Shown: positions 11,446 to 63,599 of the stretch, piece by piece | Numbering within the stretch: the stretch's first letter is position 1 | Layout of the letters: each line of letters opens with the position of its first letter | Assembly (NCBI GenBank): GCA_010015675.1 | Contig: ML977017.1 | Location: 138,427-202,426 of the forward strand | From: Byssothecium circinans | Lineage: Eukaryota > Ascomycota > Dothideomycetes > Pleosporales > Massarinaceae | Length of the DNA stretch: 64,000 nt | Reading direction: 5' to 3' | The notes under the pieces: model-generated | Told to the model about the DNA's origin: nothing | Seen by the model: only the letters and a program-made list of their open reading frames with translations | Databases searched by the model: none | Made by a program: the position numbers and the translations under genes

Positions 11446-13814
11446 ATGCCAGGTATCATTCGGACTCTTGACGACACATCTCTCCCTCGACATCCAGCCA
11501 TGGTTCGCCAAAAGACCCGCGATGCCTTTATGGCAAAGACATCCGTCAAGGCCAAGCTCTCCGCACAAGACAAGTCTAGCTCGATGAGCCTCGAGGTCGG
11601 TTCCTGTTCCATTGCTCCAAACAAGTAAACTAACCTTCACAGCCCGTGTACATCGGTATCGCTGTCGCCGACGGACTTGGCAGCTCAATTGACATTGCGT
11701 TTGTTATCCACGACGGCACCTATTCAATGGACTTTGCAACTGTCTCCATAGGTGCGGAATCAAGTAGCAGCTCTGAGCCTTCAGCCGCAACTTCCGAGGC
11801 CAACTCTGGAACTACAACCCCTGCAACAGCTGAGGAGCATGCCGATTACTTTGTCGAGAAAATCATCAGCAAGATCAAGCACTACCGTGATGAGCATTTC
11901 TACAAGTTTGTTGGCGCTGGTCTAACTACAAAGGCCGCCAAGACATGTCCTCAGCTACCAACCCGCTTGTGGCTCGAGTTGGATATTGTGCCGTTGGTGC
12001 TGGAGCCTAGTTCTGGCAGGCACAATACCGGTACTCCAGATGCACCCAAATATATGATAGTAGATGAAGAAGCAGATGCAGTGGTAAGGAAAGCTCTAGG
12101 GTAAGCATTAAGATGCCGATAGCCTTGTATAGCTCTCCGCTGACACATGCAGGTACTTCGGCAAGGCCAACCAACCTCGCTTGGAGGTCGTTTACCGCAA
12201 TGAGGTTGGTGTTGACAGCGATGGCGCAACTGTGATTGCAGACGAGCCAAGCTATCGAGATAGTGTCCATCCCAACACCTACGCGGCCACCATGGTCTAC
12301 GCTGATTCGCTCAAGAAGCACGGCACGAAGATTGCCTTCTTCAACAGCACCCCTCAGGGCGGCGGTGTCGCCTTGATGAGGCATGCGCTGATCCGCTTTT
12401 TGCGACTTATTGATGTTTATTGTAAGTGGTAAGTCACTCTACACTGCACATCTGATCATCACTCACACTTCACAGGTACGTTCCAAAGCCTAAGCCTGCT
12501 GTCTTCCGTATCACCAAGAACAACCACAACATCCTCCAGGGTGTGGATGAAACCGGCGTTCGCCTCGAACAAAAGTCAATCGACATCCTCGATGAGTGGG
12601 CAAGGCAGAATGCCGAACGCTACTGGATCACCAAGGGCAGTCCCCTCGCTCCTCGAGCGGAGGGCGGTGCTGATGTCATCATCGTAGACGATCCCCAGAT
12701 GCCCTCTCTTGTCAAGATTGCCAAAGAGCTAGACCCCTCCCGTCCTGTCCTCTTCAGAAGTCACATCCAAGTACGCGCCGATCTGGCAGACCAGGAAGGT
12801 ACGCCCACCGCTGAAGTTTGGAACTGGGTATGGAACAACGTAAAGCAGTGCGATGCTTTCATCAGTCACCCCGTTCGCGAATTCGTGCCCAAAAATGTAA
12901 CGGCAGAGAAGGTCGGCTATCTTCCTGCCACGACAGACTGGCTCGATGGTCTGAACAAGCAGCTGGACAGTCGGGACGCACAATACTACATGCACGAGTT
13001 TGAGATGGCCTGCCTCGACAAGGGTGCCAATCGCCTGGCATTCCCAGCACGCCCATATATCACACAGATCGCTCGTTTCGATCCAGCCAAGGGTATCCCG
13101 GACGTTCTTGCTTCGTACGCCATCCTTCGGCGAGAATATATGAAAGACAAGCCCATGGAGGAGGTCCCACAACTTGTCATTGCCGGCCACGGCGCCATCG
13201 ACGACCCCGACGCAACCATCATCTTCGACAAGACAGAAAAGGAGCTCAATGAACTCTACGCCGACATTAAACACGATGTAATCGTCATGCGCATCGGCCC
13301 CGTAGACCAGCTCCTCAACGTGCTCATAGCCAACGCTCACGTCGCGCTCCAGCTCTCGACGCGCGAAGGCTTCGAAGTCAAAGTCTCGGAGGCCCTGCAC
13401 CACGGTGTCCCCGTCATCGCGACGCGCCGCGGCGGCATCCCACTCCAGATCGAGCACGGCAAATCAGGCTTCCTCGTAGACGTAGGCGAGCACGACGCGG
13501 TGGCCAACTACCTCGACCACCTCTTCACCGATAACGCATCGTACATCACCATGGCCAACTACGCAGCCAACCACGTCAGCGACGAGGTCAGCACCGTCGG
13601 CAACGCGCTCAGCTGGCTGTACCTGGCCGACGAGCTGGCCAACGGCGCGAAGAAGATCGAGCCGAACAGTCGCTGGATCAACGACATCGCGCGCGAGAAG
13701 GCCGGATATCCGTACCGGCCCAAGGACAAGGAGACGACGCTCAAGCGCGAGAGCGCCATGCTCGATCTGACGCATCAGCCAGGCCGCAGCAGGCAGAACA
13801 GTGCGGTGCAGTGA
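11446..13814 (+). CDS. ccg-9: GT4 trehalose phosphorylase / clock-controlled gene 9-type glycosyltransferase
   Basis: This is a family GT4 retaining glycosyltransferase of the fungal trehalose phosphorylase/synthase (ccg-9) type. The family links trehalose to glucose-1-phosphate plus glucose in the cytosol. Four exons are inferred: 11,446-11,595, 11,643-12,100, 12,153-12,428 and 12,476-13,814. Introns are 47-52 nt and phases agree throughout, giving about 740 residues, the family's usual size. Family landmarks include YIGIAVADG and HDGTYSMDF near the N-terminus, STPQGGGVALMRHAL, VDDPQMP, ARFDPAKGIPDVL, and the GT4 EX7E catalytic motif at about residues 592-600 (EGFEVKVSE). An alternative in-frame ATG at 11,500 has a better initiation context (CCATGG). 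The gene is intact although it is surrounded by RIP-mutated repeats. Donor choice at the first intron is the least certain point. Confidence 0.9.
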
Positions 13815-14003: not shown

Positions 14004-14459
14004 ATACCTTTAATTTTGCGGAGCGAGGAACGAGCGTAGCAAATCTACAATCCAAATCGCGCCTGAGGGCTTCCAAAAAATCGCATTTTGACGTACTTCT
14101 ACCTATTGAATTTCATTGCTGATTTTTCTATATATGCTAAAAACTGTACCCTTGATAGTTCTACTAATAGCAGCCTATATTTAATTCGTTGTAATAGGTA
14201 TACGTGGATAAAACAGTGTTTTTTGAATAATGTTCTTCAGAATCACGACTAATACGCGTGTCGCGTGTCCTGTATTAGGCAGTGAAACAGGGGCTTAGGG
14301 TCCAAAAGCTGCTTGCGCTACTTTGTCTACCAGCCACTGCATGCGGCAACATGACTAAACCCTATATTGTGAAGAAAAAATTCGCTACACTATAGGCCTA
14401 ATACCTCACAACACTACCTAATACTACTTCCCTCTATCCACGTACCCTTACACGTTATT
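14004..14459. other. Spacer upstream of the Helitron replicase
   Basis: About 450 bases with no readable gene. It contains the left copy of the 12-bp inverted repeat and, close to the replicase start, two CCTAATAC motifs (from 14,398). It probably holds the 5' terminus and promoter of the Helitron. Confidence 0.4.
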
Positions 14460-17400
14460 ATGGATGTTCTACACTGCAATCGCTGCAACGCACCTCTTAC
14501 GCCTGGCGTTGATCAATTTCGCAATAATAAATGGAAGAAGAACTGTCAGGCCTGCCTTACAGTTACTTAGAGTTATAAACGGCGAGTGAATACGTTAGAG
14601 TATAAAGCTGCACCCCCTATAAAGTATCACGCAATGCTAACGTTAGACTCTAGTCCTTTATCTAGTATTCTCCGTACTCTAACGCTAGTCTAACCTTAAT
14701 CTATACTAACGTCTACGCCGCATGCGCTAACCGCACCAGGGACTCCACTCAAGTAGCAGCTTCTTCGTGCGGCTGGTATTAGTCTTAGTATTAGGCCACT
14801 ATCTTAGTCTTTAAATACGTCACTATTACCTTACCTATCCTAACTTCCCCTATTAGTACTGCTAAGCGCCACGACTCCCATTAAACCCCTATTATCATTA
14901 TAAATGCTTTCTAGTTAACTATTACTATAGATAGCCGTGATACATTCTACATCATAGCCATGGTATTCATAACAGCAAGGGGAGGGTATTTTATAGAATA
15001 CCCCTCCATCTTTAGTGTAATCACGCGATACTTACTCTAGTATTAGTCCTAGTATTAGTTATACAACCTACATAGCGGCTAAGTCTAAAGAACATGTAGT
15101 TGATGAGTTAGATGATAGTATAGTAGCAGCTAAGTCTTAAGAACATATGGTTAATAAGTTTAATAATAGTGTAGATAGAGAGATGCTTATAGAGGTAAAA
15201 GAGAATATATATAACTTCCCTCTAGAAGAGCCCCTATTATAAATTTAGGACAACAGTTCCCATCTTTCTAATCCTGCATTATCTGATTAAGATAAAACGT
15301 ATATCTCTACGTTTTACAACGCACTTAAGAAAGAAGAGATAGAGACGTGTACAATTTGCAACCATTATTAGTTTCGCCTAAACGTTCGCCGTGGGGAATA
15401 TGCTGCCTATTTAACTAATCGCGTTAAACATAGTGCTAAAGAGGATTAGGTGCCTATATTTAGTGCTGCAAACAATATGGATCTAGGTGTAATGCCTAAC
15501 CTCCCTTCTCTTACTAATGTTAAGGAGATACTTATTGCCTAGGTTCACTGTTTTATATAGATATGTCAGCATCATGGGCAGCAGTATAAGTACAGAGGGC
15601 ATATATGTCATTTCGCCGTCAATGTAGCTAGGGTATTTTTAAGGCTTCCTGTCCTTCTATCTAAGCTTGATATTATTATCCTTAAACTACCATATTTAGA
15701 TGAGGACGACCACGCTTTAGTTGAACGTTAATTCAAGAAGAGTTGGAAAGTAAGGCGCACTGTAGTGTTGCGTTAGCTGCAATAGTTAAAGGCACATCAC
15801 TCTAGATACAGCAATATTATTATTAATAATGAGGCTATTCAAGAACTCCCTATTAATAGGTATGTAGACGATCAATTTACTGTGCTTCAGCATGGGGATA
15901 TAGACATTAGGCTGGGGGATTATCCTAATACGCAAGAGCTAGTATCACTATCCTATACGCTAGACTATTCACCCCCACTATCTATACCTGCTATGACCGC
16001 CTATACACTAGATGGGTTACTACCTAATACTAGGCCTAATACTAGCGCGGATTCCTACTACGATGGTAGCTCAATTTTTAATAAGGACGATAATGACGAT
16101 AATAGAGCCAACACGACCGTGGTTCCTAATATTGTTCCTAATATTAGTGAATTTGAGACTTTGCGTTATTAAATCTAATTAAGACCTTCCTACCTTACTA
16201 TGGGCTTAGTGCGAAGGACACCTATTTCTGAATATAGTAATTAGGAAAAGATCCTTAGTCTTGCATTTCCCACCTTATATCCAAATGGAATTAGTAACTA
16301 TATGCAACCAAGGATGCGGGAGGTTACATATGCGGACTATGTTTAGCACATGATAAGCTATAAAGATGGACGTTTTGCTTGTTACTTACGTTTCCATTTT
16401 GCTACCTTTAATACGCTTCTCCACAGGCAAACTACTGCAAAGGCGGGTTTCTTTGTGAGGAAGACACTAGACGGCGCTTCTATGATGGCTAAGGATATTC
16501 AAGCTCAGTTTAACAGCGCTGATGGTGGGCAGAGTTTAATTAACGCTATAGTGCAGTTCTCTGCCTCTATTCAAGGTTCTTATGCGTATTGGAAAGTAGA
16601 GGGTATAAACCTAAAGGCTATGGTACGTGTGGTCTACCTAATACCTAGCTAATACCCTTATTATTAATATCTAACTTTTATTAATAGGTTTATCAGCTGC
16701 GATGTCCTTATCTATTTGTTACATACTCTGCTGCGGATTACCATTGGGCTGATCTTATGAGATTTATAGAAGAGGAGGCCTTTACTAAGTAGTAGACTAC
16801 AACTAATGCACGTTAAGTAAGGCTAGCATAGGATTTCGTACGTGATAACCTACATATTGTTGCTTACTAGTTCTACCGTCGATTTGAACTATTTAAGAAG
16901 CATGTTATGACGCCTAAGTTCAACCTTGTTAACTTCTGGCATCATTATAAGTGGCAGGGCCGTAGTAGTACTCATAACCATGGCCTATACTACTATAGGG
17001 ATGCACCTTATCCTGATTAGTATTTGGCTCAGAATACTACTGAGCTTAAGAAGCGACGATTAGCAAAGTATTAGGGCTATTACATTAGCGCTGTTCATCC
17101 TAACCTACACAAGGCTACTCTAGAGCATTCATATGGCTCCCCCTTATCTCTTACATTTGATTAGATGGTTTTCGACTTTCACAAACTTGCTACTATCTTG
17201 ACTAAGTGCTACATGCATGTATGTCATCTTAGTTACTGCCAAAGGAAAAATAAGAAGACAGGTGAGGTAGTCTATTACTTTAAGGCTCCCTAGCCACGTA
17301 CAGCTGATCCCTACTTCACTAAATTAGCTAGGAAGTCTTTTTACCATCTCCACGCTCAACAGAATCATCCACTTCTAAACGCGTACTGTCGAACTCTAGT

Positions 17401-19825
17401 ATTAGGCTAGCGGGCTAATACTAATATACAGCCCTGCACTAGTACTGTAGGTGTTGTTCAATATGTTAGTCTATATGTTAGCAAGGCAGAGTAGCAGACG
17501 ACGTCATTTAAGGATATAGCTACTAAGATACTGCCTCATATCTAGTCCAAGAATGCTATATTCAAGTTTGCGGCAAAGTTAATGAACAAATCAGCGGGCT
17601 AGAGGGACTATAGCGCTTAGGAAGTTTGCTATATCCTCTTTAATCTGCCCCTTACAGATTGTAGTCGTACTATTCTTAACGTTAACCTTCGTTGTAAGGA
17701 GGATCAGCCTAAGACATACGTCTTTCAAGCTAATCATCAAGTTAATGATGAAGTGATTGAGGAAGATACACCTCAGTTTACTAAGGGCCGTTCTGTGCTA
17801 GTAAAATATAAGGAGAGGCCTCTGTTACTTGAAGCCGTATCCTATTTAGACTACCTTCTTCATTACGACCATGCAAAGAATCAAGTTAGGCCCCAGGCTA
17901 GGCCTAGGATTTTGAAGTTTTACCCTCTATACTCTCCTAAGTTAGATAGGGAAGACTTCTCTCGCGTTAAGCTTATGCTACATCATCTATTTTAACAGGT
18001 ATTAGATGTAAGGACCTTTGCCGGCCAGGAGTACCAGTTATTCTTGCAAGCCTATTGGAACTACCTGTTGGTATGCAATCACCCTTTACCTGATAGCTTT
18101 GGAGAGGTGTTACCTAAAAACAAGGAAGAAGATCCAGATTAGGAAGACGTGGATTTAGCGGATAAGTTATCATAGAATGAGCTTGCTAGTCGTCTCCCTA
18201 GTACTAATAGTGTTATCATTAATAAGGATAACCTAGGCAGTCGGCTAGTTGATCTAGAGAAGGATTGGAACGTACCTAAGCATAAGGATAGTTACGGCCT
18301 TAATGCACGTCAATATTGGAAGGAGATGAAGATAGCTTATCTAGTTAATTACGCTACTAGACCTAATACCTCGCCTAATACCCTTTAGTCTAAATAGCGG
18401 CTACTGTTCAATCTTATTGTTAATCATTATCAAGCCTACCTAGATAGGAATAGGCTAGAGCAGCTTCTTCTTAACCTTGACGGCTAGGGTGGTACTAGAA
18501 AGACGTACGCTATTAAGGTTATAACCTCTACTATAGATAGTATTATGAGGGCTTTAGGGAAGAAATCACCTATTATACGGTGCGCACCAACTAGAGTAGC
18601 CACTTTTCTTATTTCAGGAAAGACTATCCTCTCTACCTTCCGCATACTAATTCGACCTCCTAGTGGTGTGCTTCCACCTCTTGCTCTAGCAGCGTTAGCT
18701 TAGACCTAAGCGCTATTTACTAATATTTATTACCTTATTATAGATGAGAAGTCTATGGTAGGGCTAATAACACTAGCGTAGTTAGATATGAGGTGCCGTG
18801 AGATCTTTCTAGCACAGGCTAGCTATCCTTTTAGTAGTTTAAACATTATCCTAGCTAGTGATTTTTACTAGTTACCCCCTGTTGCAAGAAGGCCTATATT
18901 CAATACTACAAAGAGCCACAGCTCTTCAGATACAGCTAGTGCGGCGCTATATAAACTATTTACTAGAACTATTATTCTAGATGTAGTTATGCGCCAGCAG
19001 GGTTCTGAATAGGCTTCCTTCCGTGATGCTCTTGCACGTATCCGTGAGGAGAAGCCTAATGTCTATGACTGGCTTCTCCTTATGAAACGCTGCAGCGTTG
19101 AGCTTAGTGAGGTAGAACGGAACTCCTTTAATTCTGCCTTGCGTATATGCGCAAAGAGGATAGAGGTAGCTGCTATTAATCATAACTGCCTCCAGGACTC
19201 TGGCCAGCCTATCCTTATTTTACAGGCCACATATGATAGTCAAGATCAAGAGAAGGTGTCTACTAAGGATGCGGGGAATCTCCATAACCAGCTCCCTATA
19301 TTTATTGGTGCCTAGGTTATGCTACTTAATAATATCTGGACAGAGCGTAGTTTAGTTAATAGGGCTATAGGGGTTATTAATAATATCCTTTAGCAGCCTA
19401 ATACCTAGGATTATCGCAAGGCTACACTAAAGGCGGTATTAGTCGCTATAGATAAGTATGATGGGCTGTATCTTTACAGCCTTCTAGATGGTACAAAGGT
19501 TATTCTAGTGTTTCCTCTTGTTCAGGAATTTACTGTTGATTAGAGTATGCATGTGCGTATTTAATTCCCTATTACACTTGCCTGGGCTATTACAGTTCAT
19601 AAATCCTAGGGTTTAAGTGTGGATAAGGCTGTGATCATAGTTAGTAGGGAGCGAGATTACTACCCTAGCTTAATGTACGTTGCGCTTTTAAGGGTTAAGA
19701 CTATTAATGGTTTAATGTTTAAGGATGTGTTTTCCTATCAGCGGTTGAAGCAAAAGAGAAGCAAGGTGTTAGAGATGCGAGAGCAGGATATAAGGCGTAG
19801 GGCGCGTCATCACGTCATAGTGTAG
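14460..19825 (+). pseudogene. Helitron replicase-helicase (Rep/Hel), inactivated by nonsense mutations
   Basis: One frame runs from the ATG at 14,460 to about 19,825, with one intron (about 16,629-16,687, ending TTAATAG). Dozens of internal TAG and TAA codons are all explainable as mutated CAG/CAA. No frameshift was found. Order of domains: a CX2C...CX2C zinc-finger-like N-terminus (14,472-14,560); a second cysteine-rich segment (15,350); a Helitron_like_N domain (about 16,300-17,000) with the HUH-type HNH motif at 16,973-16,981; a Rep tyrosine segment YVSLYVSK (about 17,460); a helicase with degenerate Walker A GGTRKT (about 18,490), Walker B LIIDEKSM (about 18,740) and HKSQGL (about 19,600). 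Such proteins nick and unwind DNA for rolling-circle transposition. About 1,770 codons. The stop at the end may itself be a mutated codon. Confidence 0.85.
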
Positions 19826-19986
19826 CAGACTATTTTCTAGGTCTAATACCTAGACTAATACCACTATTATTAAGAGGTTTTGCGAGGGTAGTTTCCTATA
19901 ATATAAGCATTCTTATAAAAGTTTCCCTAATCTATCTAGATGGATAGAGCGCCTAATACTACAGCCTAATACTCCGTGACTATATC

Positions 19987-20809
19987 CTAATCCCTAGAGC
20001 ATATGGTCTCTGTATCTGTACCATCTACTAAATATAGACTTAGATCAACGTCACCCTTATCGCCTAGCCTCTCAAGCTCTATGAATTTCGTAATGTTAGG
20101 CATCTTCACACCGTTATTGTAGCCTTGATGGGGAACCTCTAGCTTAATACCTTCTATTGCATCTTCTTCTATTTGCACACCTTCCATTGGTTCACCTTGG
20201 GAAGTATTCTCTGTAGGAAGTTCTGCAATGATATAGTCAAGTAGATCTGTAGTATATCCTGCATTCTTACCCTATACCTTAGGGAAATGTGCGCTATAGT
20301 CTTTAATAGTGCGTAGATTATACGCACTAGGAAGCTTGCATGCTTTACTATCGCGAAAGAGTTAGATAGTAGAGTCTGCATAATCCCTATCACGCTGTGC
20401 TTAGTAGATTAGAGAGAGTAGCACGCGTTATTATTAGGGGAATAGCATAGGGAATGGCGGAACAGGCATCTTTGACTTAGTGTCAACGCTGATCAGGTAT
20501 CTATAAGGCACTTCTGACTTCTGTAGTGCTGACCTTGCAGCGATAATCTATTATAGTTAGCTTATACCTAATACCCTGACTAATACCACACTTACTCGAC
20601 CCTATCGCATAGGCAGCTTTAATTTAGTCTTCTTGAACACCTTTCAAGTAGCACCAGCCTATCAATGGTTAGTTCTAGACTAATACTAGGTCTAATATCC
20701 TACTCACCCATCCTAAACGCACTAGCTTCTTTCTAGCCACTAGAAGAGCGACTTAGTCATTAAGTGTTGGGTTAAGCTACTAGATATAGCGCTGCTTGGT
20801 ATTAGCCAT
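19987..20809 (-). pseudogene. Helitron cargo gene c, unknown 241-residue protein (RIP stops)
   Basis: No family was recognised. The frame starts at the ATG at 20,809 (MANTKQRY). Two clear introns, 20,659-20,707 (GTGAGT) and 20,548-20,595 (GTAAGT), both have CTAAC branch sites and both leave phase 0. Removing them gives exactly 242 codons to the stop at 19,987. About ten internal TAG, TAA or TGA codons fit C-to-T mutation of CAG, CAA or CGA. The N-terminal half is basic. The C-terminal third is acidic and stop-free (20,187-19,987). Both introns carry GTATTAG-type motifs. The preserved gene structure argues that it once coded for protein. Confidence 0.6.
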
Positions 20810-20813
20810 GGTA

Positions 20814-21254
20814 TTAGGTTAGTTGCGTTACACTTACAATAAACATGCCTTGCGGCATGCGTAGAATAAATCCCTTCAGCCCTTAATAATAGAGAATCCT
20901 CAACTTTTCCACTATAATGTCAAGCTCTCTATTCCAGTATCTCTTCACCTATAGCTAGTAGCTAAGCTCTGTCCATTCTTCCCTCTCTTTATTGCTCAGG
21001 TTAGGCACTATTATATCAAATTTTTCTTTTTTCTCCTTAATGTCCGTCGTCTTTTTATCTGCTTTGCCTGCGTTAGATTTGCCCTTTTTACTTAACTTAC
21101 TACTCTCTGCACTCTTATTAATAGTAGATGAGGCAGCGTTAATAATATACTAAGGCGGCATAAACTCATCTTCTAGTGCCCAGACCTTTTCTTAAGGCTT
21201 AAAGACCAATCTCATAGTTTTGTAGTCAGATTCTAGCTTTCTAGTGCGTGCCAT
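20814..21254 (-). pseudogene. Helitron cargo gene b, unknown basic 146-residue protein (RIP stops)
   Basis: The frame opens at ATG 21,254 (MARTRKLE) and closes at TAA 20,814, exactly 147 codons without an intron. Internal TAA and TAG codons all sit where CAA or CAG would fit. The middle is lysine-rich (KKGKSNAGKADKKTTDIKEK), and the C-terminal part has a plausible amphipathic segment. No family was recognised. It overlaps the end of gene a by 14 bp in another frame and ends 5 bp before the start of gene c, so the three genes are packed head-to-tail on the minus strand. Confidence 0.5.
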
Positions 21255-21658
21255 GGCTAGCTGTATCTAGAGCAGATTCTGACTCTCCCTGTGTATTATT
21301 AGTTATACCTAATACCAGACTAATACTCTTCTTATACCTGGCCTTAAGTGCTGCATTGCGACTCTGAATTCGAAGCATGTCCTTAAGTTGCTTACGCTCA
21401 TTTTCATCTGTAGCGCTATCAAGCAGGTGCTGAATACGTGGCAAGAACTTCTTTATCTAGAAAGTAGAGCACGCCTTTACTAAGTCAGTATATAATTATT
21501 CAGGTATGGGGGGGTTATTATACCTTATTATCAGCGTTTTTTCCCTTTTGAATCATGAAGTCTTCGCCCTACTTGCTTGCGCGAAGTTTGTTATTTTTGA
21601 TGGTGCTTACATTTAATGAGTATGCATTAGCAGCCTTCACCTTCTTCCGGTCTACCAT
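21241..21658 (-). pseudogene. Helitron cargo gene a, unknown small basic protein (about 116 residues)
   Basis: Exon 1 runs from ATG 21,658 (MVDRKKVKAANAY) for 45 codons and holds one TAG. A putative intron, 21,457-21,523, joins in phase to a 72-codon exon that stays open to 21,241. A second short intron around 21,305-21,270 is possible because that stretch carries the GTATTAG motif and a CTAAT branch site. The product is lysine/arginine-rich and may bind nucleic acid; this is only inference from charge. No family was recognised. Confidence 0.5.
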
Positions 21659-22474
21659 TGCAGCGAGAGGGCTTAGCAGGATGTATTAGGTAGGTATTAG
21701 GCGTTATTTAGTAGTGGGGCAAAGTTGCATATAGTGCGTAGACGTTATATAAGGAGTGTATAAGAAGTAGTGTTAAGTAGCAAATTTTCAGTAATAAGTT
21801 TATTTATAGTTACACGAAATTGAAAGTAGGGCTAGGTAGTAATCACGGGAAATTATCACTAGCCTATTGTGTGCGTTAAATGCGCCCAACACTTTACGAC
21901 ATGATTCTAGCATGAGCGTGTGCAGCTTAGTTAGCTGCACAAGTACATACTAGAATCATAGTATTAGGTTAGGTATTAGTCTCTCTTTAGAAGCCGTTTC
22001 CCATCTTCATACGTGGTTTTCTCGCTGACGTAATGTTTTCTCTCTTATTTTACTTCTCTTTACGCCCTTACCTTTACTGCTCACCTTTACTACTTACCCT
22101 TACTAGCCACCTTCACGTTACCTTCTTACTTCTTGCGCTTACCTACCACCCTGCACTTTAACAACTCTCGATCTTTGCGATTTTGCTGTCTTTGTGGTCG
22201 CAAAGCTTTGCAGCTGTAGTATAGCTATAACTAAAGTATTAGGCTTGGTATTAGCCTTTCTATGTGTATACTCCCCTACAATTTCCCCTTCTATTGCCTA
22301 CTAATTTCAACTTCCTTGCGTACTATCACTATTCCTATTTCTCACTTTTACTGTTCTTATTTCTCACTTTCACTTTCACTATTAACGTTATTAGTTTTCC
22401 ATCTATTTTCTAACTAAAAAGTAGTTAGTTTACGTCTACCTTATTTTCTTTCATACACCTTATAATATACCATC
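21659..22474. other. Divergent spacer between cargo gene a and the histone-like gene
   Basis: About 800 bp between two divergently oriented genes, probably containing both promoters. It holds GTATTAG dyads near 21,960 and 22,230 and pyrimidine-rich stretches (22,030-22,180 and 22,330-22,440). The latter are typical of fungal leaders upstream of the ATG at 22,475. No further gene was recognised. Confidence 0.4.
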
Positions 22475-23221
22475 ATGGCCGCCAAGAAGAATTGAGGCAA
22501 GCTGCCTGCAAAGGCTCCTCGTGGCAGAGCTAGCAAGGGTAATAGCGCCTAAGGTAGGCTAGGTATTAGTCTTAGTATTAGCTACATGTTAACTATGTCT
22601 AGCTTTAGGTCCTCATAAGAAAGCCTAGAAGAAGCTTCCTACTAATACTAGCACGAACCTATATAAGGGTTATAAGAAGAAGGGAGGGTCGCCACCACTA
22701 ACACGGAAGCTAATAAGCTACGCCATGTAGAAGGAGCGTGCTCCTATCTACAAAGGCCCTAGCAAGGGAGGCCCTCGCATTAGGCGTCGTAAGCCTAGCA
22801 GTAAGTTTTTGACCTATATTACTGCAGCTAGACTAATACTAGTATTAGCCTTTGCTCTAGCAAAGATCCATTTCTACTAGAAGACTCTAGGTGACTTGAT
22901 TCTAGTAGCGCCATTCAGGAGATTAGTTCGCGAGGTGCTGCAGAATAATTAAGAGGGAAATAGTGACCCTGTGTCCCATTTCTAGTCTAGGGCTTTGGAC
23001 GCCTTACAGGCTGCTACTAAGGCCTTCCTAGTAGACATCTTGCAAGGTATTAGTCTAATTTATATGGTATTAGCCTCTACTAATAATAGTGCTTAGCTAC
23101 AAACCTTAGTGCTATCCATGGGAAGCACGTCACTATTCAAGCTAAGGACGTTAAGCATGTCATTAGTATTGGCAAGATTCTTGCTCCATATAGTAAGATT
23201 CTGCAGGACTTGCCCGCCTAA
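22475..23221 (+). pseudogene. Divergent histone H3-like (CENP-A-like loop 1) gene carried by the Helitron-like element
   Basis: Four exons (22,475-22,553, 22,609-22,800, 22,861-23,046, 23,097-23,221) sum to 582 nt, exactly 194 codons. Introns are 50-60 nt with consensus or near-consensus donors. Seven internal stops (TGA, TAA, TAG) all fit C-to-T change of CGA, CAA or CAG. Exons 3-4 read a complete histone H3 fold: alpha-N FYxKT, alpha-1 APFRRLVREV, alpha-2 ALDALQAATKAFLVDI, and the highly diagnostic loop-2/alpha-3 segment ATNLSAIHGKHVTIQAKDV (H3: DTNLCAIHAKRVTIMPKDI). Loop 1 is about five residues longer than in canonical H3, as in centromeric H3 variants. The first about 100 residues form a Lys/Arg/Pro-rich tail without the ARTKQTARKS sequence, and there is a C-terminal extension of about 15 residues. 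Whether it is derived from CenH3 or another H3 needs a tree. Confidence 0.82.
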
Positions 23222-23524
23222 TGCTGTATCTCACTATGCTACCTATCTCCTACATGTCAAGCTCAAGGGTATTAGGCGGTATGAGGCATGACTACTAGCG
23301 TTAAATAGATATTATCTACAAAGTATAGCTTTCTATACTACTCAATTTAAGGAGTTATAATAGACTGGAACACAGAAGGTTTCTAGCATACTAGCTAGGA
23401 TAGGTAGCTTAACTATCTGAATGAAAAAGCTTTATTGCGTAACTACTCTTCTTCTCTACCCCAAGTGATAAATCGCTCCGCAAATTCTAATTCCCATTTA
23501 CGAAAATTAGAAGGATCTTAACTA
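23222..23524. other. 3' terminal region of the Helitron-like element
   Basis: About 300 bp with no gene. It contains the right copy of the 12-bp inverted repeat and the terminal hairpin described for the element. It is followed directly by Fot1-like terminal repeats. Confidence 0.45.
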
Positions 23525-23618: not shown

Positions 23619-23627
23619 ATATAAAGC

Positions 23628-23746
23628 ACTACTAAGAGGGCTACACTACTAAGAGGGCTACACTACTAAGAGGGCTATACTACTAAGAAGGCTACACTAC
23701 TAAGAGGGCTACACTACTAAGAGGGCTACACTACTAAGAGGGCTAA
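23628..23746. repeat. Seven tandem 17-bp units in a transposon terminal repeat
   Basis: ACTACTAAGAGGGCTAC is repeated seven times (119 bp) with one or two substitutions. Normal copies of this family have two such units in each terminal repeat. This is a slippage or unequal-exchange expansion of the presumed transposase-binding unit. Confidence 0.9.
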
Positions 23747-52455: not shown

Positions 52456-55400
52456 ATGAGCTCCATGAGCGAGGGCGCGTTGCGCTATCTCATCCACCAT
52501 GTTGTACTTCCGCCGAAGCTACCGCAGCAAGACGATTCAAGTGCTCTCCGCGAGGGTATCTTACTCGACCATACCGTGCAGGCTCTACGAAGCTTGCAAG
52601 CCATCTTGAGAAATGACTACACCGAGGCCGCGGAGCAAGTCGGTAACGTGGTTTCCACCATCGGTGAGTCACACTCGGCGCACCGTAGCAATCGCTAACA
52701 ACAATGTAAACAGACAACCTGATCGCTAGTCGTGCTTCTCTAGGGCATGTGTCTCAATTGCGGCTAGGCGAATTGATTCGCGGCCTGGCCACCGGTAGCA
52801 TCCAGGGTGCAATTCCCTTGGAGATCAAAGCCCAGAATGCCGGTATTATCATCAGTCGGCATTGCAACGATGTCGTCTTCGAGGTCTTTGAGCTTTCCCC
52901 CGTGAATGAGTCGGTCATGTCCACCCCAGGACGTCTCGTGCGCACCTTTCCCACGTACGCCTCGAAAATTCCGATCACCAAGTTAGAAGAAGACGGCCTG
53001 ATCGATGCGCTCTCTCATACTATAGAGACGATGAGTGGACAGGAAATTCCAGAATTCCAACCGCAAGTCCACAAAGGTGGGAAGAATCACGGCGAAATTC
53101 GCGACACTACACATCCCGCTCTAGTGACGGACTATCTCATCAATGTGCTCTCCGCACTTGGAGATCCAACGGAAGTCTCGGGTATCACCAAACACACGCG
53201 CGAAGAGGTCATGTGGGCCAATGCCTTACTCCCATGGCGGAGGTCTCCGTTGTGGCTTATGCTTCGCATCGCAATGCAAATCCAGTACAGTCGCCACTCT
53301 ACTAATACGCTTGGAAGTCTGAGCTTGTATAAGACATCGATGGTCTGCGTCATGTCCTCTCTACTCGATACTGCAAGGACGCATGGCGATTGGATTGACA
53401 ATGCCTTGATGCAGGCTATCTCCGCAAAACTGTCACGTCGGCTCCGCAAGCTGAAGCTTGTACAATCCGAGAGTTTCTACCAGCTGTGTTCGCAGCCAGT
53501 CCGAACGAGTCTTCTCGATGCTTATGATTTCATGCAGAAGAGGTGGGATAATATCAGAAGCTTCGATGCTAAGTCTAGCATGATTGCGGTGAACAAGGAC
53601 AATATACGACCAAACAAGGACCTTGCGATCAAAATCCCGCTATTAGACCAGTTCATCGGAGAAATCGCCGCTCGGAGTAGAGATTTGAGCGCTCCCGCAT
53701 TCCAGCCATCCTGGGAGTTTCCAGATTTCCCAAAAGATTCACTTCCAAGCTACCTCAGGGCGTCTGGGGAGCAGAAATACTTCGAAGCGGCTGAATTCGA
53801 ACAGTGGGTCGAGCAACACCTGCTGTCTTGGCTCGAACAACACATCAACGACGAAGGATCATGTGGACGCTTGAGAGAATTGATCGAACGCTACCATGAT
53901 TTCGCCCGGCCTCTGTACTCCAATCCTGCAATGCCACCGAGCATGTCAGTCATGTATCTTACCATTGCGGAACTGTGGATCGCCTGCGACAAGAGTGCCT
54001 CCCATCGCAACCCTCTACTTCTGGACTTTGACCCGGAGGTCAATTTGGACACTTTCCAGTATCTCTGCCTTCCACTTCAGAGTCAACTCCGACGATTGAA
54101 TAAAGTAGAAGAGTACCTCAGGTTGCGAAAAAAGCGAGCTATCCCGGGAGCTCCGTCCATCTTTCATTGTTTCGGTGACAAGGCCTCCTTCGCGGTGAAA
54201 TACTTTGAGAAATCAGCTACCCATCAGTTGCTCCGCACGAGGATTGAGGAAGGTGCAGCGATTCAGCGTAAACAAAAGCGTGAAGAGCTGGCACGAGTGA
54301 AGCAGAAGTACGAAAACCTCACTGCAGAAGCTGAAAAGATGGTTTGTGACGAGACAGAAGTTATTACTGATACATTCAACAACTTCACGGAAATGCAGCA
54401 CTCACCGTTCTGTAGCAAGTGCCGCCTTAAAGCCACAGCGGCCAAACTCAGCATAGCAGTGCACGAATGGCCGCTCAGTCCGCTACCTTCTGAAGCGAAA
54501 GCTACCGTCTTCGAGCTACAGATCCCAGAAGATTTCAGTAATTGGCGCGATGCGACTATCATTCTAATGAAGAATGTTTTAGGCCACAACCAGGAGACAG
54601 AGATTGGTCCGCAAGCGGAACACACCCTGATGAACCACCATAGCCTTGGTATATTCCAATCCTTGCCGTCAAACCAACGCATAAAGATTCTTTCCAGCGC
54701 CAAACCTCTTGCTGGCTCTCACTACAAGGTCAAGCGCGGGGTGAGCATGTTGACAGAGGACAATGTTTGTGTGGCCAGCGCACTTCACTACCGATACTAC
54801 GATGGCAACGTGGGCATATTCACAAGCCGTTTGGTACCCACCGACAGGATTGGCGAGGAATGTACGTACCAACTTCCCAAGCGTTCATCGCAGCTGCAGC
54901 GTTACGTCCAGGGTTGTGGGTCTTCCGGGAAAGTGACCCCAAATTCAGTCATTGCGTCGCTGTCTGAATGCCCTCATCATATATCGCTCGATGAATACAA
55001 GGCGTTTGGCACACTTTCGATCGGATTCACCATTCGATACGCCAACATACTTGTTCAGCTCGCCATGCCAACTCTAGACTTCTCCAAAGTCGAGACACAC
55101 TGCTTGATCACACAGGCGGTTCAGCAAGCCGGGCCGCCATCGTTGCACGGCCAGATTGAGCGTATTTCTCATCGAGTACTCCTTGAAGATTCTTTCTGCG
55201 ACGCTTTCCTAGCAGAATTAGAGGGTGCTCTGCCCAAAGTCGCAGAAAACTGGGAGTCCTGGAGGGCTCTCGCAACATTCGTTCAGTTGTCCCTTCGGAT
55301 ATTCAACCTAACGAGTTCCTCCATCATCCGCTCCCGTTGTAAAGGCTGCCTTGAAAAGGCCCGTTTGATATCATTAGAGTGGCTGAAAATCCTCAAGCAC

Positions 55401-58400
55401 AGGGGTCGAATGTCCACGAACTGTTTACAGCGATCGGAGCTATATTCAAGGGCTACCGAAATTGCACTTGTCTGTATCAGCACTCTAGATGTCGATGGTT
55501 CCCATTTGGAAGATGTACTGTCATCACCAGGAGCGGTTTCCGCCTTGCTACAGAGTTCCATTATCGTACAGGAGAACGAGAATGCATCATCCTCAGAACA
55601 CGAATACCTCCATCGCGTTCTTCTGCAGTCACGTCGAACACTACTTCTTCGCTTATTTTGGATCTTACAGCGCGGCATCCTCGATGATCGGAATTTCCAG
55701 GAGCAGTTGAACGAGGCTGTGTCCTCATCGTGGTCTGCTTTCCAACCAGAAGGACGTTGGAGCAAGGTCCAGAGCCCTCATGGCCACTGGTTACACGTCA
55801 ATTGTTGTGACCGGGTGGTACATTTTAATCTTCTGACCGGAGAACTCCTCGTGAATGGGGTGCCCCTTTCCCGCCTCCCGCAAGAATACTCAAACCACTC
55901 GCTGTATGCCACACTCTTCCAGGGAACTCCAATGGAAGTAGTACCAACTAGTGAGCCTGGTATGGCGTTTTCCGCAAAAGTTGCCTACAGGGGCTACGAA
56001 CTCGACTTTGGAATGAGATCAAAGCAAATGCTCATTGTAGCATCCCAAGCTGGAACCAAGTTCGACCTCTTACCCGCACACTTCTTCAAGGGTATCTTCC
56101 CTTCATCATTCATTGAAGACTATTTCCATTGGTATGAGCATGGCAGTGGCACGATAGAACTCCGTCCACGAGTGGACCCGTGGTCGAGTGAGGGAAGCCT
56201 TTGGCGACTGAAGAAATTCGGCACGGCCTGGACTTTAGAGAAGGATGATTTATCGCTTCTCAATCCGAACAGCCTTACTGCACGAACGCTTGCGAAGATC
56301 TTCGAGCCTTTGGCATACCAGTCCCACCTTCATCTTATGTTCGAGAAGAAATCTGGCACCGTCTCGATTGAGCTTCCCAAACTACAGCTTGGCTTTTACG
56401 TCAAGCAAGATGAAGCAGTCATACATTCTCGGCAGTATCGCGGCATGATCATAGACGAAATTCAGGCTTTGGGAACGTTGACTGGATTGTCCAACAAGCT
56501 CGTTCTGAAGCACACCCTCGGTATCAATGACCGCATAATTTTGATTCCTGACGGTTCCGTCCAATACACGAAATCCGAGGATCATGTACTTGTTTCGATA
56601 AGCAGAGACGACGCGACAAAGTCGCATGCCTATCAGCTTGACTCCATCCTGGGTCGTCTGGTTGACAATGGAAGCCTCCGGAGCAAGCTCTTCTTGTGTT
56701 ATCTCCACGCGCTGACCGCTCATTGTATCGTCGATCCATTCACCGGTTATACAGGCACTGAAGCAGCATTGTCTATTCTACGCTCAGCAGCTGTCGCATC
56801 GTTTGATATTCTCAGCCACCAGGATCTCCAACTGCTGAAGCTCATTGCGAACTTAACGCCGGGTCGTACCTATTACCCACAACATGCAAAAGTTATGCAG
56901 ATGGTGAGCTGGGATACAGACCTTTCATTCACAGCACAACATCCCGGGTTCCTGTTGAGCGTCGAGAATCTTTTCAACGAAGCGAGGAAAGGGAAGGTGT
57001 TCCATGCCCACGATGGGTATGTGGAGCCGCCAAAGCTAGATTTCGCGAAACACGACTTGGTCCTTCGGGACCTGATCCGGTCATCCACCTTTCGAGTAGA
57101 TGGATTTGGCGCCGAGAGCTATACCCATGAGGATGATCGAGCATATAAGTCTAGGACTCAACTTGGTGTGGATAGAGGTCAGCGGTCTTTCTTTGCTGCT
57201 TCCTTAGTCCTCCGTGACCAACTAGCTCTTAACGCCAAAGTCCACGCCCAACATTTCCGACAGCTGCTCCGAGAAAACCTTCACAATGCAACCGTTCGTG
57301 GTAAAGACTTTGAGAACGGGAGATCATCCCTTTCATTCTCCCCAATGTGGCTGCTGAAGGCCTCTACATTCTTGCCGAAGATGTTGTGTAATCTGCATGC
57401 ATTTTTATCGGGAGAACCAGAGGAGTTTAACAAATTCTACATTGCAATGTGGCTTTCTACGGTAGCTTTCTCTAATACTGCAGATATGAACATAGTTCAA
57501 GCTTTTGTAGCATTCTATCGACTCTCGGGTATGGCAACAATCGACATCCCTGCACTACAGAAGTACGAATTGGCAGAAGGTGACAGTCCAACAATATCAG
57601 GCCTGCAGACTGCTCTAGAGACAGGGCACCGTTCATTTCAGCATAGCCCAGAATACAATCTTCCGAAGCACGTGGGAGAGACGAAAAAGCGGTGGACCTC
57701 AAGGAAACAGAGACAGTTCAGAGAGAACCAGAGCACTGCAGTTGAGGAGTATATCAAGGCAATCCAGCCTCAGTGGCCATGCAAAAAGCCGACCAAGCCA
57801 AATTTCGAAGGTATGGAGACATACATCGACAGCACGCACGCCATGCCCGCAGTCCTTGGTAAATTTCGATCTTGGTATGAAAATCGGACTTTCTATCAAT
57901 ACATCGCAGAGGTTGCTGCTACGCTAGAGAGACAACAAGTTGCAAAGGTTTTGTACACACCGAACCAGGAAATCGTGCCTTCCGGCGTCGTTAGTCTGCC
58001 GTGCTCGGGAAGCTTTACCATTGACAATCTTTTTGCTCTTACCACGACGTTCTCGTGGCCAGCAACGCCAAAGGAGCTTGATATTCCCTTGTTCGAGCAG
58101 ACGCCACCCCAACAGAACACGCAGGCCAAAGATCGCCTTACAATGCTTTGCCAAGAGCTTGAGACGCAGGCGACATCTACCTGTGAGACTGACTACGTTT
58201 CGCACCTGCGCGGAAGCTGCGACTCCCTTATTGAACAACCGGTGCGGTTCTCTATACGCTCGAACATATCGACTTGTGACCTCAGGGAATCTATTGAGAC
58301 ATACCTCGCTCATTGTCGACAACATGTCTTTCAAATCGATGAGCTGTTGAAAAACGCCGTCCTCTCGGGTGGCGACATTGCAGCATGTATCGGTCATGGC

Positions 58401-60707
58401 CCTCGTGTCTCGTCGATTTTTTGGTTAATGCAGTTGAACAAAGATCGTTTTGACCATTTGCCGAAACATTGGCAAGCTGCAGTCATCAAATTCGCTCTTG
58501 CGATCACAGAGCTTCATCGAGCCCAGAGGCTGCTTAAGCTTGCTGAGCTACTAAACGAACTTGCAGAGGAACTTCGCAACTGTGGCCATCAAAACTGGAA
58601 GCCTGAGGAATTCCCCGAGACATTACTGCTGGAGGCTGAGAGTGGTATCATCGTTCGTGAAGTCCAGAAAGATATTTCGATGGTTATGCGAAGCCCGCCT
58701 AATGCGAAGAACTCGGTGATGCAGCTCAACATGGGAGAAGGGAAGTCATCGGTGATTGTGCCGGATGTCGCAGTAACTGTGGCAGATGGTAATATATTAT
58801 CACGAGTGATCGTTGCAAAGCCGCAGTCAAAGCAGATGCTACAAATGCTAGTTGCAAAGCTTGGAGGGCTCCTCAATCGACGGATTTATCACATGCCATT
58901 CTCTCGAGCACTGAAGATATCCGCAGCTGACGCAAAGGCTATCGGAAAGATGTACGAAGAGTGCATAGCGAATCGCGGTATACTTTTGGTGCAGCCAGAA
59001 CATATACTGTCCTTCAAACTCATGGCTATCGAGTGCCTAATCATAGGGAAAAACGACGTAGGACGCTCTCTACTCAAGACTCAGCATCTATTCGACACCC
59101 AATCACGCGACATCGTCGACGAGAGCGATGAGAACTTCAACGTGAAGTTTGAGTTGGTTTATACGATGGGAACGCAGAGGCCCATTGAGCTGAGCCCGGA
59201 GAGATGGAGCATCATGCATTCCGTATTGGCGTTGGTCTCTCGCTATGCTTCTGAAGTCAAGAGCGCATTGCCCATATCGATCGAAGTCGACGATCGTTGG
59301 GAAGCAAAGGGTCGATACCCTCGTGTTCGGATTCTACGGAGCGATGCTGACGATATGCTGCTTGATCGGATCGCCAATCACATCTGTAGCAAGGGCTTCA
59401 CGCACCTAGCCGTTGCTAGACAGTCCAAATCCACAATAGACGCGGTCTACCGGTATATACGTCAGCCCGAACTCTCACAGGAAGAAATTGCAGCCGTTGA
59501 AGAGGGAGATTTCTGGACAGACTCTACCAAAGATATCCTTCTACTTGTTCGAGGAATGATTGCATGCGGAATCCTACGGTTTGCTCTCCACTCAAAGCGA
59601 TGGCGAGTCAATTATGGAAGCGACCCTACCCGTGTTCCGAAGACTAAGCTCGCTGTTCCATACCGATCCAAGGACAGTCCTTCCCAACGGTCGGAATTCA
59701 GTCATCCAGAAGTGGTTATTGCACTCACATCGCTCACCTATTACTATGGCGGCTTGAGCGACGAGGAGTTATTTGATTCCTTTACACATCTTCTCAAATC
59801 AGATCAGGCTGATGTTGAGTACGGTGATTGGATAAAGTTCTCCAAAATCCCAGAGTCCTTTCGTCGACTTAAGGGTATTAACATCAAAGACAGATACCAG
59901 TGCGTCACCCAGATTTTCCCCCTACTTTGTTATTCGAAAGGCGCAATCGACTACTACCTCTCTCACATCGTCTTTCCAAAGGAGATGAAGGAGTTTCCGA
60001 ACAAGCTTTCTGCTTCTGGCTGGGACATTGGTGCTGTGAAACCCAATCCAACCACAGGGTTTAGTGGGACGAACGATTCGCGACATGTCCTTCCGCTCAG
60101 CGTTGAACACGTTGACCTAGCGAAGCAGAAGCACACGAATGCTTTAGTCCTCGCCTACCTTCTCCAGGATGAGAGCTCTATTGAACTCCTGCCCAATCGA
60201 ACTTCCTCTGAGACCTCTGACGCGGAGCTGCTTCTGAACGTTGTCACTCGACTAAACCCAGAGGTTAGAGTCATACTCGATGTCGGCGCACAGATTCTAG
60301 AAATGAACAATTATGAGGTCGCAGAAGCATGGCTCCAAATGAGCGATGCTGATACCACGAAAGCCATAGTGTTTTTCAATGATCACGAAGATCTCGTGGT
60401 GCTCAATCACCGTGGCAACGTTGAACTCCTCCAGACTTCAGCTTTCTCGAAGCATCTTGAGGACTGTCTGGTATATCTGGACGAGGCGCATACAAGAGGA
60501 ACTGACCTGATACTTCCCAAGTACTACAGGGCAGCTGTCACGCTTGGTGCGAACCTTACGAAAGATCGGCTAGTGCAAGCCTGCATGAGGATGCGCAAGC
60601 TAGGCAAAGGGCAATCAGTCGTTTTCTGCATACCCCAGGAAATCCAGACCAAGATCCTGGAGTGCTCCTCAAAGACTGATGCATCCGAGATTCAAGTCTC
60701 TGATGTC

Positions 60708-60715
60708 CTCGTATG
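60708..60715. repeat. Left 8-bp target-site duplication of the hAT element
   Basis: CTCGTATG, identical to 63,776-63,783. One copy is enough to restore the host reading frame. Confidence 0.95.
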
Positions 60716-60734
60716 CAGACTTGCTATCAGTCAG
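60716..60734 (+). repeat. Left terminal inverted repeat of the hAT element
   Basis: A 19-bp arm; 18 of 19 bases pair with 63,757-63,775. Confidence 0.93.
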
Positions 60735-61106
60735 GTAACTCAGTTCGAACTGACTGAACTGACTGCCAAGACTCAGTTCAGTCAGTCAGTTCTTGAGGCC
60801 GCTGGACGTCAGTCCAGTCAGTTTAGAGGCCTCCAGACTGACTGAACTGACTGACGTTGGACTGACGTTGGCTGTTTTTGAAGTAGAATTTTGCAGTCGT
60901 GATAGCCACATCTGGTGCGGCTTCGAAGCCGCGCTAGTCCTGGATACATAGGCACTAATCCTATATGAGTTAAAATATATAGCATCAAGCCAATCAGAGT
61001 TTGTGGAGGTGCGCTAGCCGCACCTAGCAAGCCTTTCGCGTCGCGTCGCGTCCGCTAAACACACGACGCTACACTACTGTTACTATAATACTGTTTGGTG
61101 TACTTC

Positions 61107-63599
61107 ATGTCTACTCCCTCCAATTTAGACCTTGGCCGCCTTGTAGAATACGACAAGCGCAATCCTCCTCTACCATCGCTATCGAACGCGCCTACTGTTG
61201 GCGATACTGCGGGCGAGGCACAGGCTGATGAGTCTGTGGCAGTACAGGCGGACTTCCCCAACGACGGCGACGACGACGACAATTACGACGGGCTTAATTT
61301 TAAGCGTGTGCCGTACCTTGAGCGGCGCCAAGTTGAGCGCAATAGTCGCGGTGGGCCAAAAAGCTGGATCTACCGCCACGGCTGGGCCGTCTGGCACCGC
61401 AAGTACAAGAAGAACTACTGGCTTTGCCGGTACTGCCATCAACGACGGAAGCAGGAGGCTTGCTACGAGGCTGACAGCACTACAAACGCCGGCCGACACC
61501 TCTCAAGCAATAAGCCTGGACACTCACACGGACCTAACGGACCTATACTAATTGCTAGCCGGGAGGGCAATATTATGGGCGCGCTCGCAAAGTCCCAAGT
61601 ACATATCATAAGGTCTAAAGGGATAGAGGTATCGCAAGAGGTGGCAAACGAGATGGCAGCAAGCTTTTCAATCTCTCGATTTTAGGACGCGCTGAAGGAC
61701 TGGGTAGTCGCGGACAACTAGAGCCTTCGCGTAATAGAAACGCCGCAGTTTTAAGCCATGATTGCGGCCGTAAGCCCGCTAGCCGAAGCCCTCCTTTGGC
61801 GTAGCCACCAAACGCTCCGTGATCATATTATTGCTGAGTACAATACATATATACCAGCTGTTGCCAACTACCTTCGCGAAGCCCGGTCGCTTATACACGT
61901 GTCATTTGACAACTGGACTTCAACTGGTGGGCAGTATGCTTTTACTGGCCTCTGCGTACATTACCTTAACAGCGAGGGCAAGCTAGTTGACCACCTGCTT
62001 GGGTTGCCTGAGCTACACGGAGCGCACACTGGCAATAATATTGCCGCTGTAGCAACAACGATACTTCAGCTATTTGGCGTTGACAACACGAGCGTTGGGT
62101 ATTTTGTGCTTGACAACGCAAGTAACAATGATACTGCAGTTGAGTCCTTAGCAGAGGAGTTTGGCTTTATCGCAAGCGAGCGGCGGCTGCGGTGCTGCTG
62201 CCATATACTCAACCTAGGCGCGCAATTAGTAATTTGGGGCAAAGATCGTAGCGCGTACGAGAATGACGCCGCCCACCTTGAGGATGAGAAGAAGTACATG
62301 GATGAGTGGCGCAAATACGGTCCTATTAGTGTCCTCTTTGATGTGATTGCGTCTATCTGCACGCCTCAAACTCGACAACTACTAGAGCGACTACAGCGCG
62401 AGGAGGCAGAGTCTCTAGGTGTTACACCTCACATCCGGTAGCTTGTTAAGCCTGTCAAGACCCGCTGGAATAGCTATTTTAGCACGTTTGTGCGCGCAGC
62501 TGAGCTACACGGCCCTATCGATAGCTATATTGAGTGTAAACTTGAGGAGCATAGTGCTGCAACAGCACCCTCACGGCGCCGGAAAAACCGCGAGCAGCTG
62601 CCCGCTGCGCAGCCGCGACTATACATACGTGAAGGCGGTCTAAGCGGCAAGGACTGGGCGACAATAACAGAGTACATTTGACTCCTTGAGCCATTTGCCG
62701 AAGCTACATAGCTACTTGAAGGCCGCGGACAACACGGCCGCCATGGCGCTATTTGGGAAGTTCTAGTAACGTTTGAGTGGCTTCTTGACCAGCTTGAGGC
62801 TCTTAAAGACCGTCTTAAGGATGTAAATTACGAAGATCTGGACGCGCCTGAAGATCATCTTGTTACGAACGTCAACCTTGCGCACAGTAAGCTTGCTGAG
62901 TACTACGCAAAATTTGACGACGCGCCTGTCTACTACACTGCTACGATACTACACCCGCACTACAAGCACCACCTCTTAGCGCTCTGGAAGGTACCCGACA
63001 CCTATGTTACTGCCCGTGACGGTGTTCACCATCGCGACGGCTGGCTTGACAATAACCACCGGGCATTCCTGCGCATGTGGCAGGGGCGAAAGGACTCCGC
63101 AGCTATTCCAGCTCAGATAGTGACGCCGCCGCATAAGAAGTCCCGGCTAGGGTTGTCAACGTCGCGATCAGCTTTTCTACAGTCGTCGATCGAGCAAAGT
63201 ATACGGCAGGTAGAGGCAAGCCTTGCGGAGGATGAGTATGAGATTTGGAAGCGGCAGCCAGCGTTAGCTGAGGAGGATTGGCTGTCTCTTAATCCGCTTC
63301 TATACTGGGAGTCAGTTGCTGGGCAATTCCCCATACTCTCAAAGTTTGCTATCGACGTTCTGACAATACCAGCGGCAGCGGCAGACTGTGAGCGGACTTT
63401 CAGCGAGCTTGGCGACATGTTAGGCACGCGGAGACTCCATATGAAGCCAGAGCTTGTTTCAGCTTTGCAGAGTTTAAAGAGCTGGAAGAGGCTTGGTATA
63501 CAGCCAACGACTACGTCAGCTTTGGGGTTAGCGCGTACACTATCGGAGGAAGAAATCTCGAAAATACAGGAGCAGTTATCTCAGTTTGACGTCAGGTAA
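61107..63599 (+). pseudogene. hAT transposase with six in-frame stop codons
   Basis: A single frame of 831 codons from ATG 61,107 to TAA 63,599, interrupted at 61,683 (TAG), 61,719 (TAG), 61,752 (TAA), 62,439 (TAG), 62,679 (TGA) and 62,709 (TAG), with no frameshift. Domains: acidic N-terminus; BED-type zinc finger at about residues 85-140 (WLCRYC ... GRHLSSNKPGH); RNase-H-like catalytic core (VSFDNWTS, YFVLDNASNND, CCCHILNLGAQ); hAT C-terminal dimerisation domain (LLYWESVAGQFPILSKFA, AAADCERTFSELG). Every stop can arise from CAG, CAA or CGA by one C-to-T change. It cannot make a functional transposase as it stands unless stops are bypassed. Confidence 0.92.

Follow-up and report, generated by a model that had tools for sequence, protein, structure and literature searches.

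In the genome of Byssothecium circinans, a histone gene of the H3 type is a constant part of a transposon that is almost certainly of the Helitron2 rolling-circle type. One copy of this element is found on the forward strand at positions 14015-23519 of the window, i.e., the whole stretch of 64,000 nucleotides that was analysed. Its fixed gene set appears to consist of a Rep-helicase gene, an uncharacterised gene on the opposite strand and the strongly diverged histone gene. The reading favoured here combines this fixed structure with a histone that would have been made before RIP and would have given the element poorly silenced chromatin; a probability of about 0.4 is assigned to this statement as a whole.

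Structure and Insertion of the Element

The element in the window is complete and 9,505 bp long, with fixed ends shared by many copies, the left one being set from empty sites. An asymmetric 12-bp inverted repeat can be read directly in the window, with its left arm (TTTGCGGAGCGA) at 14015-14026 on the forward strand and its right arm at 23473-23484 on the reverse strand, 35 bp inside the right end. A 3' terminal hairpin with an 8-bp stem follows (23485-23512, forward strand), as seen in the window letters and in the fold of the end of C62, the least damaged of the 12 copies compared; the element then ends with GGATCTT. The Rep-helicase gene (15450-19837, forward strand) is broken in the window copy, in which Helitron_like_N was located at 16338-16990. 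The rest was transferred from ORF pieces of C62, which place DUF6570 near 15450-15782, a PIF1-like domain near 18320-18700 and a C-terminal helicase piece near 19544-19837, all on the forward strand. Rep (Helitron_like_N) and the PIF1-type helicase are thus both present, in separate ORF pieces of broken copies. On the reverse strand, ORF pieces of C62 delineate a probable third gene with several exons (19990-21658), for which no Pfam or NCBIfam match was obtained with the three ORF pieces tested. This gene is lysine-rich in part, and the Pyrenophora hAT element with H3L likewise has an ORF of unknown function.

The genome surveyed comprises 48.4 Mb in 109 contigs. When the window is compared with 20 further genome stretches (12 joined regions), one unit with constant ends and varying flanks emerges, the flanks being unlike one another at 11 left and 11 right ends. 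Empty sites were searched with the joined flanks of three insertions together, yielding 85 candidates, 40 of which were scored. The junction of the first insertion is spanned by 17 of the 40 scored rows and that of another insertion by 21, two rows being one-sided; the junction of the third is spanned by none of the 40 scored rows (of 85 candidates). Two bases stand at the junction in all 12 empty sites read (of the 17), all for one insertion; the left end is therefore TTTGCGG, and insertion takes place between TNAT and A, without duplication. This TNAT/A site fits all nine copies with both ends. Assignment to Helitron2 was made by the domains, the asymmetric inverted repeat, the hairpin and the TNAT/A insertion. 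A hAT identity was considered and rejected, since scanning of 10 ORF pieces gave no match to hAT, the right arm of the inverted repeat lies inside the element end, and the insertion whose empty sites were read shows no duplication.

Regarding the surroundings of the element, a trehalose-synthase-type glycosyltransferase frame (12456-13814; TreT_GT1, Glycos_transf_1) ends about 200 bp before its left end, and short tandem repeats of the ctactaagagggctaca type lie just beyond its right end (23625-23700). A 2711-codon open frame with DUF3638, DUF6606, and DUF3645 covers 52710-60845. Long open frames at 61089-63599, with Dimer_Tnp_hAT in 62712-63599, correspond to a hAT transposase, near which the six-frame genome search with PF00125 gave no histone match.

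Constancy of the Histone Cargo

Match counts for repeats in this genome are lower bounds. At least 27 matches to the histone gene were obtained (24 over all 747 bases and three over 722, 740, and 490), together with at least 30 to the right end (26 over all 93 bases and four partial). The histone gene is located 205-212 bp upstream at each of the 26 full-length right-end matches found, and is absent within reach of the four partial ones. For 20 of these 26 right ends, a left end can be found upstream on the same strand; the resulting units measure 9,435-9,556 bp in 16 cases and are longer in four, two of which are visibly interrupted. Seen from the replicase, 13 of 16 Helitron_like_N loci (merged by hand from 20 profile-match rows) are followed on their own strand by the histone gene, in one case 18.6 kb away across an insert. 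The other three loci (C23, C14, and C30) have neither a histone-gene nor a right-end match in the genome match lists. A 1,006-bp unit related to the element (G000:C33:228560-229565) carries diverged copies of both ends and no histone match, and is likely a non-autonomous derivative.

Because the linkage is constant, the flanks differ (11 left and 11 right ends) and empty sites exist, the gene is to be regarded as mobile cargo in this genome and not as a gene at a fixed syntenic position of the host. The original prediction had described it as H3 cargo of a Helitron-like element, lying 3 kb from the replicase and in a common block with it, and the genome-wide linkage bears out the cargo reading. 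From the end of the last helicase piece, near 19837, to the histone ATG the distance is about 2.6 kb, and both genes are enclosed within one 9.5-kb element with fixed ends.

Histone Gene and Its Decay by RIP

The histone gene of the window copy (22475-23221, forward strand) has four exons, placed from the window letters and the copy alignment, with the PF00125 match and the fold model used beside the alignment for exon 3. Exons 1 (22475-22553) and 2 (22603-22800) encode the tail, exon 3 (22849-23046) alpha-N to alpha-2, and exon 4 (23097-23221) the end of alpha-2, alpha-3, a C-terminal extension and the stop. With a total of 600 bases, the exon number, coordinates and multiple-of-three length proposed initially all hold. 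The three introns, of 48-50 nt, are of the GT..AG type, and a fungal-type branch-site motif can be seen by eye near their 3' ends.

Seven in-frame stops can be counted in the window copy, all of them opposite Q (six) or R (one) of C62. C62 itself has a single in-frame stop, near the gene start, as compared with a mean of 8.3 internal stops expected when this sequence is simulated with a first-order Markov model; one stop or none was observed in 8 of 5000 such simulations. Relative to C62, the 11 other histone copies display 697 C>T or G>A differences, of which 517 are in a CpA/TpG context, and 30 differences of other types. The base changes are, from these alignments, the pattern of RIP, in agreement with the earlier attribution of the stops to mutation of the C-to-T type. 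The C62 histone is the NCBI-annotated B. circinans protein P0001 (171 aa), the model of which uses a different short first exon. A second annotated protein of this species, P0132, starts with exon 1 as read here and seems to be a fragmented gene model for a further copy of the histone gene.

A histone that serves the element is spoken against by RIP damage that hits histone codons freely, and by the fact that none of the copies read is intact today, C62 having its one stop in the histone gene. Transversions are present in only 5 of about 900 columns of the 12-copy alignment, for which reason all copies of the element may come from one recent source. Such a source would suit an H3-family gene captured once by a Helitron and inherited by all copies without being of any use to the element. 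Gene capture is known for Helitrons (PMC5148889; Pleurotus Helitron paper). In Dhillon et al. (2019; PMC6710886), the H3 of hAT elements is described as a retrocopy whose amplified copies were all killed by RIP, and canonical H3 fragments are also carried by transposons without known use. Such a passenger nevertheless fits poorly with a divergence far beyond that of a recent capture in a gene with a nearly open frame, a conserved fold and its own set of three introns. It is regarded as a serious competitor, nearly as likely as the reading favoured here, though falling short of even odds.

The Encoded Protein and Its Relation to H3 and CenH3

The encoded histone has about 199 residues. The core histone profile PF00125 matches the window copy at E 9.2e-6 in the six-frame genome search and the spliced C62 frame, with X at its one stop, at 88 bits and E 7.4e-25 (cut-off 26.4). 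The solved chains nearest to the C62 frame are those of histone H3, from E 8.4e-23. An AlphaFold model of modest confidence (mean pLDDT 69.7, pTM 0.47) displays alpha-N, alpha-1, alpha-2, and a long alpha-3, and its best structure matches are histone chains in nucleosome entries, CENP-A entries included. The segment TNLSAIHGKHVTI, named in the original prediction as part of a whole H3 fold, is present in the window copy. The profile match being significant and the nearest chains being H3, the fold is recovered as proposed and, from its sequence, the element protein is an H3-family histone.

Departures from canonical H3 are found on both sides of the fold and within it, much as had been anticipated. 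Loop 1, said to be about five residues longer than in H3, exceeds that of the four H3s aligned by exactly 5 residues, and that of 23 CenH3-type proteins (a label assigned from names and similarity) by 1-4. The N-terminal tail is unrelated to the H3 tail, without the ARTKQT and ARKS motifs, alpha-3 is longer than that of H3, and a C-terminal extension is placed in exon 4. An identity as canonical H3 was rejected on account of a tail that is not of the ARTKQTARKS type and a loop 1 five residues over the 13-residue type.

Over the fold, the protein shares 49 of 96 positions (51%) with host H3 and 52 of 99 (52.5%) with host CenH3, which is itself 100% identical to P0007; the two host proteins are identical to each other at 69 of 96. 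Intron positions, compared by eye, are unlike those of the host H3 and CenH3 genes, so the element gene was not copied recently from one or the other. A first tree, with 30 rows, sets the element histone beside CenH3, without support. In a tree of 37 rows it falls outside the CenH3 clade (97/96) and adjoins P0129 and P0131 (95/80). AU tests gave p values of 0.105-0.375 for four H3 and CenH3 placements and reject neither.

It can be asked from these data whether a centromeric H3 was taken by the element, biasing segregation or insertion near centromeres. The long loop 1, the AFLV and APF segments in common with CenH3 of related fungi, the slightly higher identity to host CenH3 and the position in the smaller tree are all consistent with such an origin. 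Nevertheless, at the start of alpha-2 the element histone has Phe, as in H3, where all 23 CenH3-type proteins compared have Trp, and the larger tree leaves it outside their clade, so that a CenH3 derivation appears improbable. A longer loop 1 by itself makes no CenH3, and the centromeric role contemplated in the original prediction is not supported by these sequence comparisons. With regard to CenH3 in related fungi, two CenH3-type proteins per species can be found in Periconia digitata (P0020 and P0084) and Dothidotthia symphoricarpi (P0046 and P0117), a hint that CenH3 has undergone duplication within Pleosporales.

Proposed Role of the Histone

A long-term job as a coding gene is suggested since frame and fold have been kept despite a divergence beyond that of host CenH3 and intron positions of its own; the histone probably serves the element. 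Before RIP, the protein would have been produced, formed pairs with host H4 and become part of nucleosomes. Its foreign tail, devoid of the ARTKQT and ARKS motifs that hold the sites of the H3K4, K9, and K27 marks, would leave chromatin poorly marked by the silencing enzymes of the host, and for an element exposed to RIP and silencing such open chromatin could in turn favour expression and movement. Anti-silencing as the actual job of the histone is put forward tentatively, by analogy, as a possibility with somewhat less than even chances. A different service to the element would be the packing or protection of its replication intermediate, either a single strand or a circle. The fixed place of the histone gene within the element, the basic tail and the circular Helitron2 forms reported in Fusarium (PMC5148889) are compatible with it; against this, the H3 fold is expected to require H4, and this role is considered very improbable.

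Beyond the anti-silencing reading for this one element, divergent H3s with altered tails might constitute recurrent transposon-encoded chromatin proteins in Dothideomycetes, on hAT and Helitron2 elements and in the manner of TET/JBP, building chromatin on the element that escapes silencing; this generalisation is speculative and rather unlikely. In this view, the third gene of the present element may belong to one kit of partners, and so may the uncharacterised central ORF of the Pyrenophora hAT. The repeated pairing of transposons and H3 raises a testable question, namely whether transposons escape heterochromatin by producing nucleosomes of their own. Being farther from H3 than host CenH3 while keeping the fold, the element histone also lends itself to asking what portions of H3 are dispensable.

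Comparison with Known Systems

Among Helitrons, FoHeli1 and FoHeli2 of Fusarium oxysporum (Chellapan et al., 2016; PMC5148889) share with the present element an asymmetric inverted repeat of 12 bp close to the 3' end, the hairpin, Rep and Hel, and TNAT/A insertion without target duplication, but are about 5-6 kb long and have their own end sequences. The word "histone" is absent from that paper and from the Pleurotus Helitron paper. In Culex quinquefasciatus, the rolling-circle element Helentron-Cq-32A (8 copies) also contains histone-derived sequence (Thomas et al., 2014; PMC4067079). However, it consists of broken fragments of H4 and a linker-type histone, 83-84% identical to host genes, with no complete histone.

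Closer likenesses regarding the cargo can be found in hAT elements. In Pyrenophora tritici-repentis, a divergent H3-like gene (H3L), neither H3 nor CenH3 and with an altered tail, is a constant, amplified part of a DNA transposon and has a functionally uncharacterised ORF as its neighbour (Manning et al., 2013; PMC3538342). Unlike the element described here, this hAT moves by cut-and-paste, has terminal repeats and is intact in most copies; H3L is likened by description and not by sequence. Transcripts were reported for H3L in hAT elements, and the authors asked whether it alters chromatin (Manning et al., 2013). H3-carrying hATs were also described in Pseudocercospora, Cercospora, and Sphaerulina, with hundreds of H3-like copies killed by RIP within a roughly 9.5-kb element of a dothideomycete, but these hATs generate 8-bp duplications and harbor an intronless H3 retrocopy (Dhillon et al., 2019; PMC6710886); Helitrons are not mentioned in that paper.

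Chromatin-related cargo on unrelated transposon lineages, hAT and Helitron2 included, is also exemplified by the fungal TET/JBP transposons, where it is interpreted by the author as anti-silencing, although the enzyme concerned is a dioxygenase acting on methylated DNA and no histone is involved (PMC12730594). No Helitron that carries an H3-type gene both complete and with introns was found in the literature searched. H3 genes in hATs of Dothideomycetes and histone fragments in a Culex Helentron being already known, what is new is an H3-type gene on a rolling-circle element, which adds a mechanistically unrelated type of transposon to the fungal cases of hAT elements with an H3-type gene.
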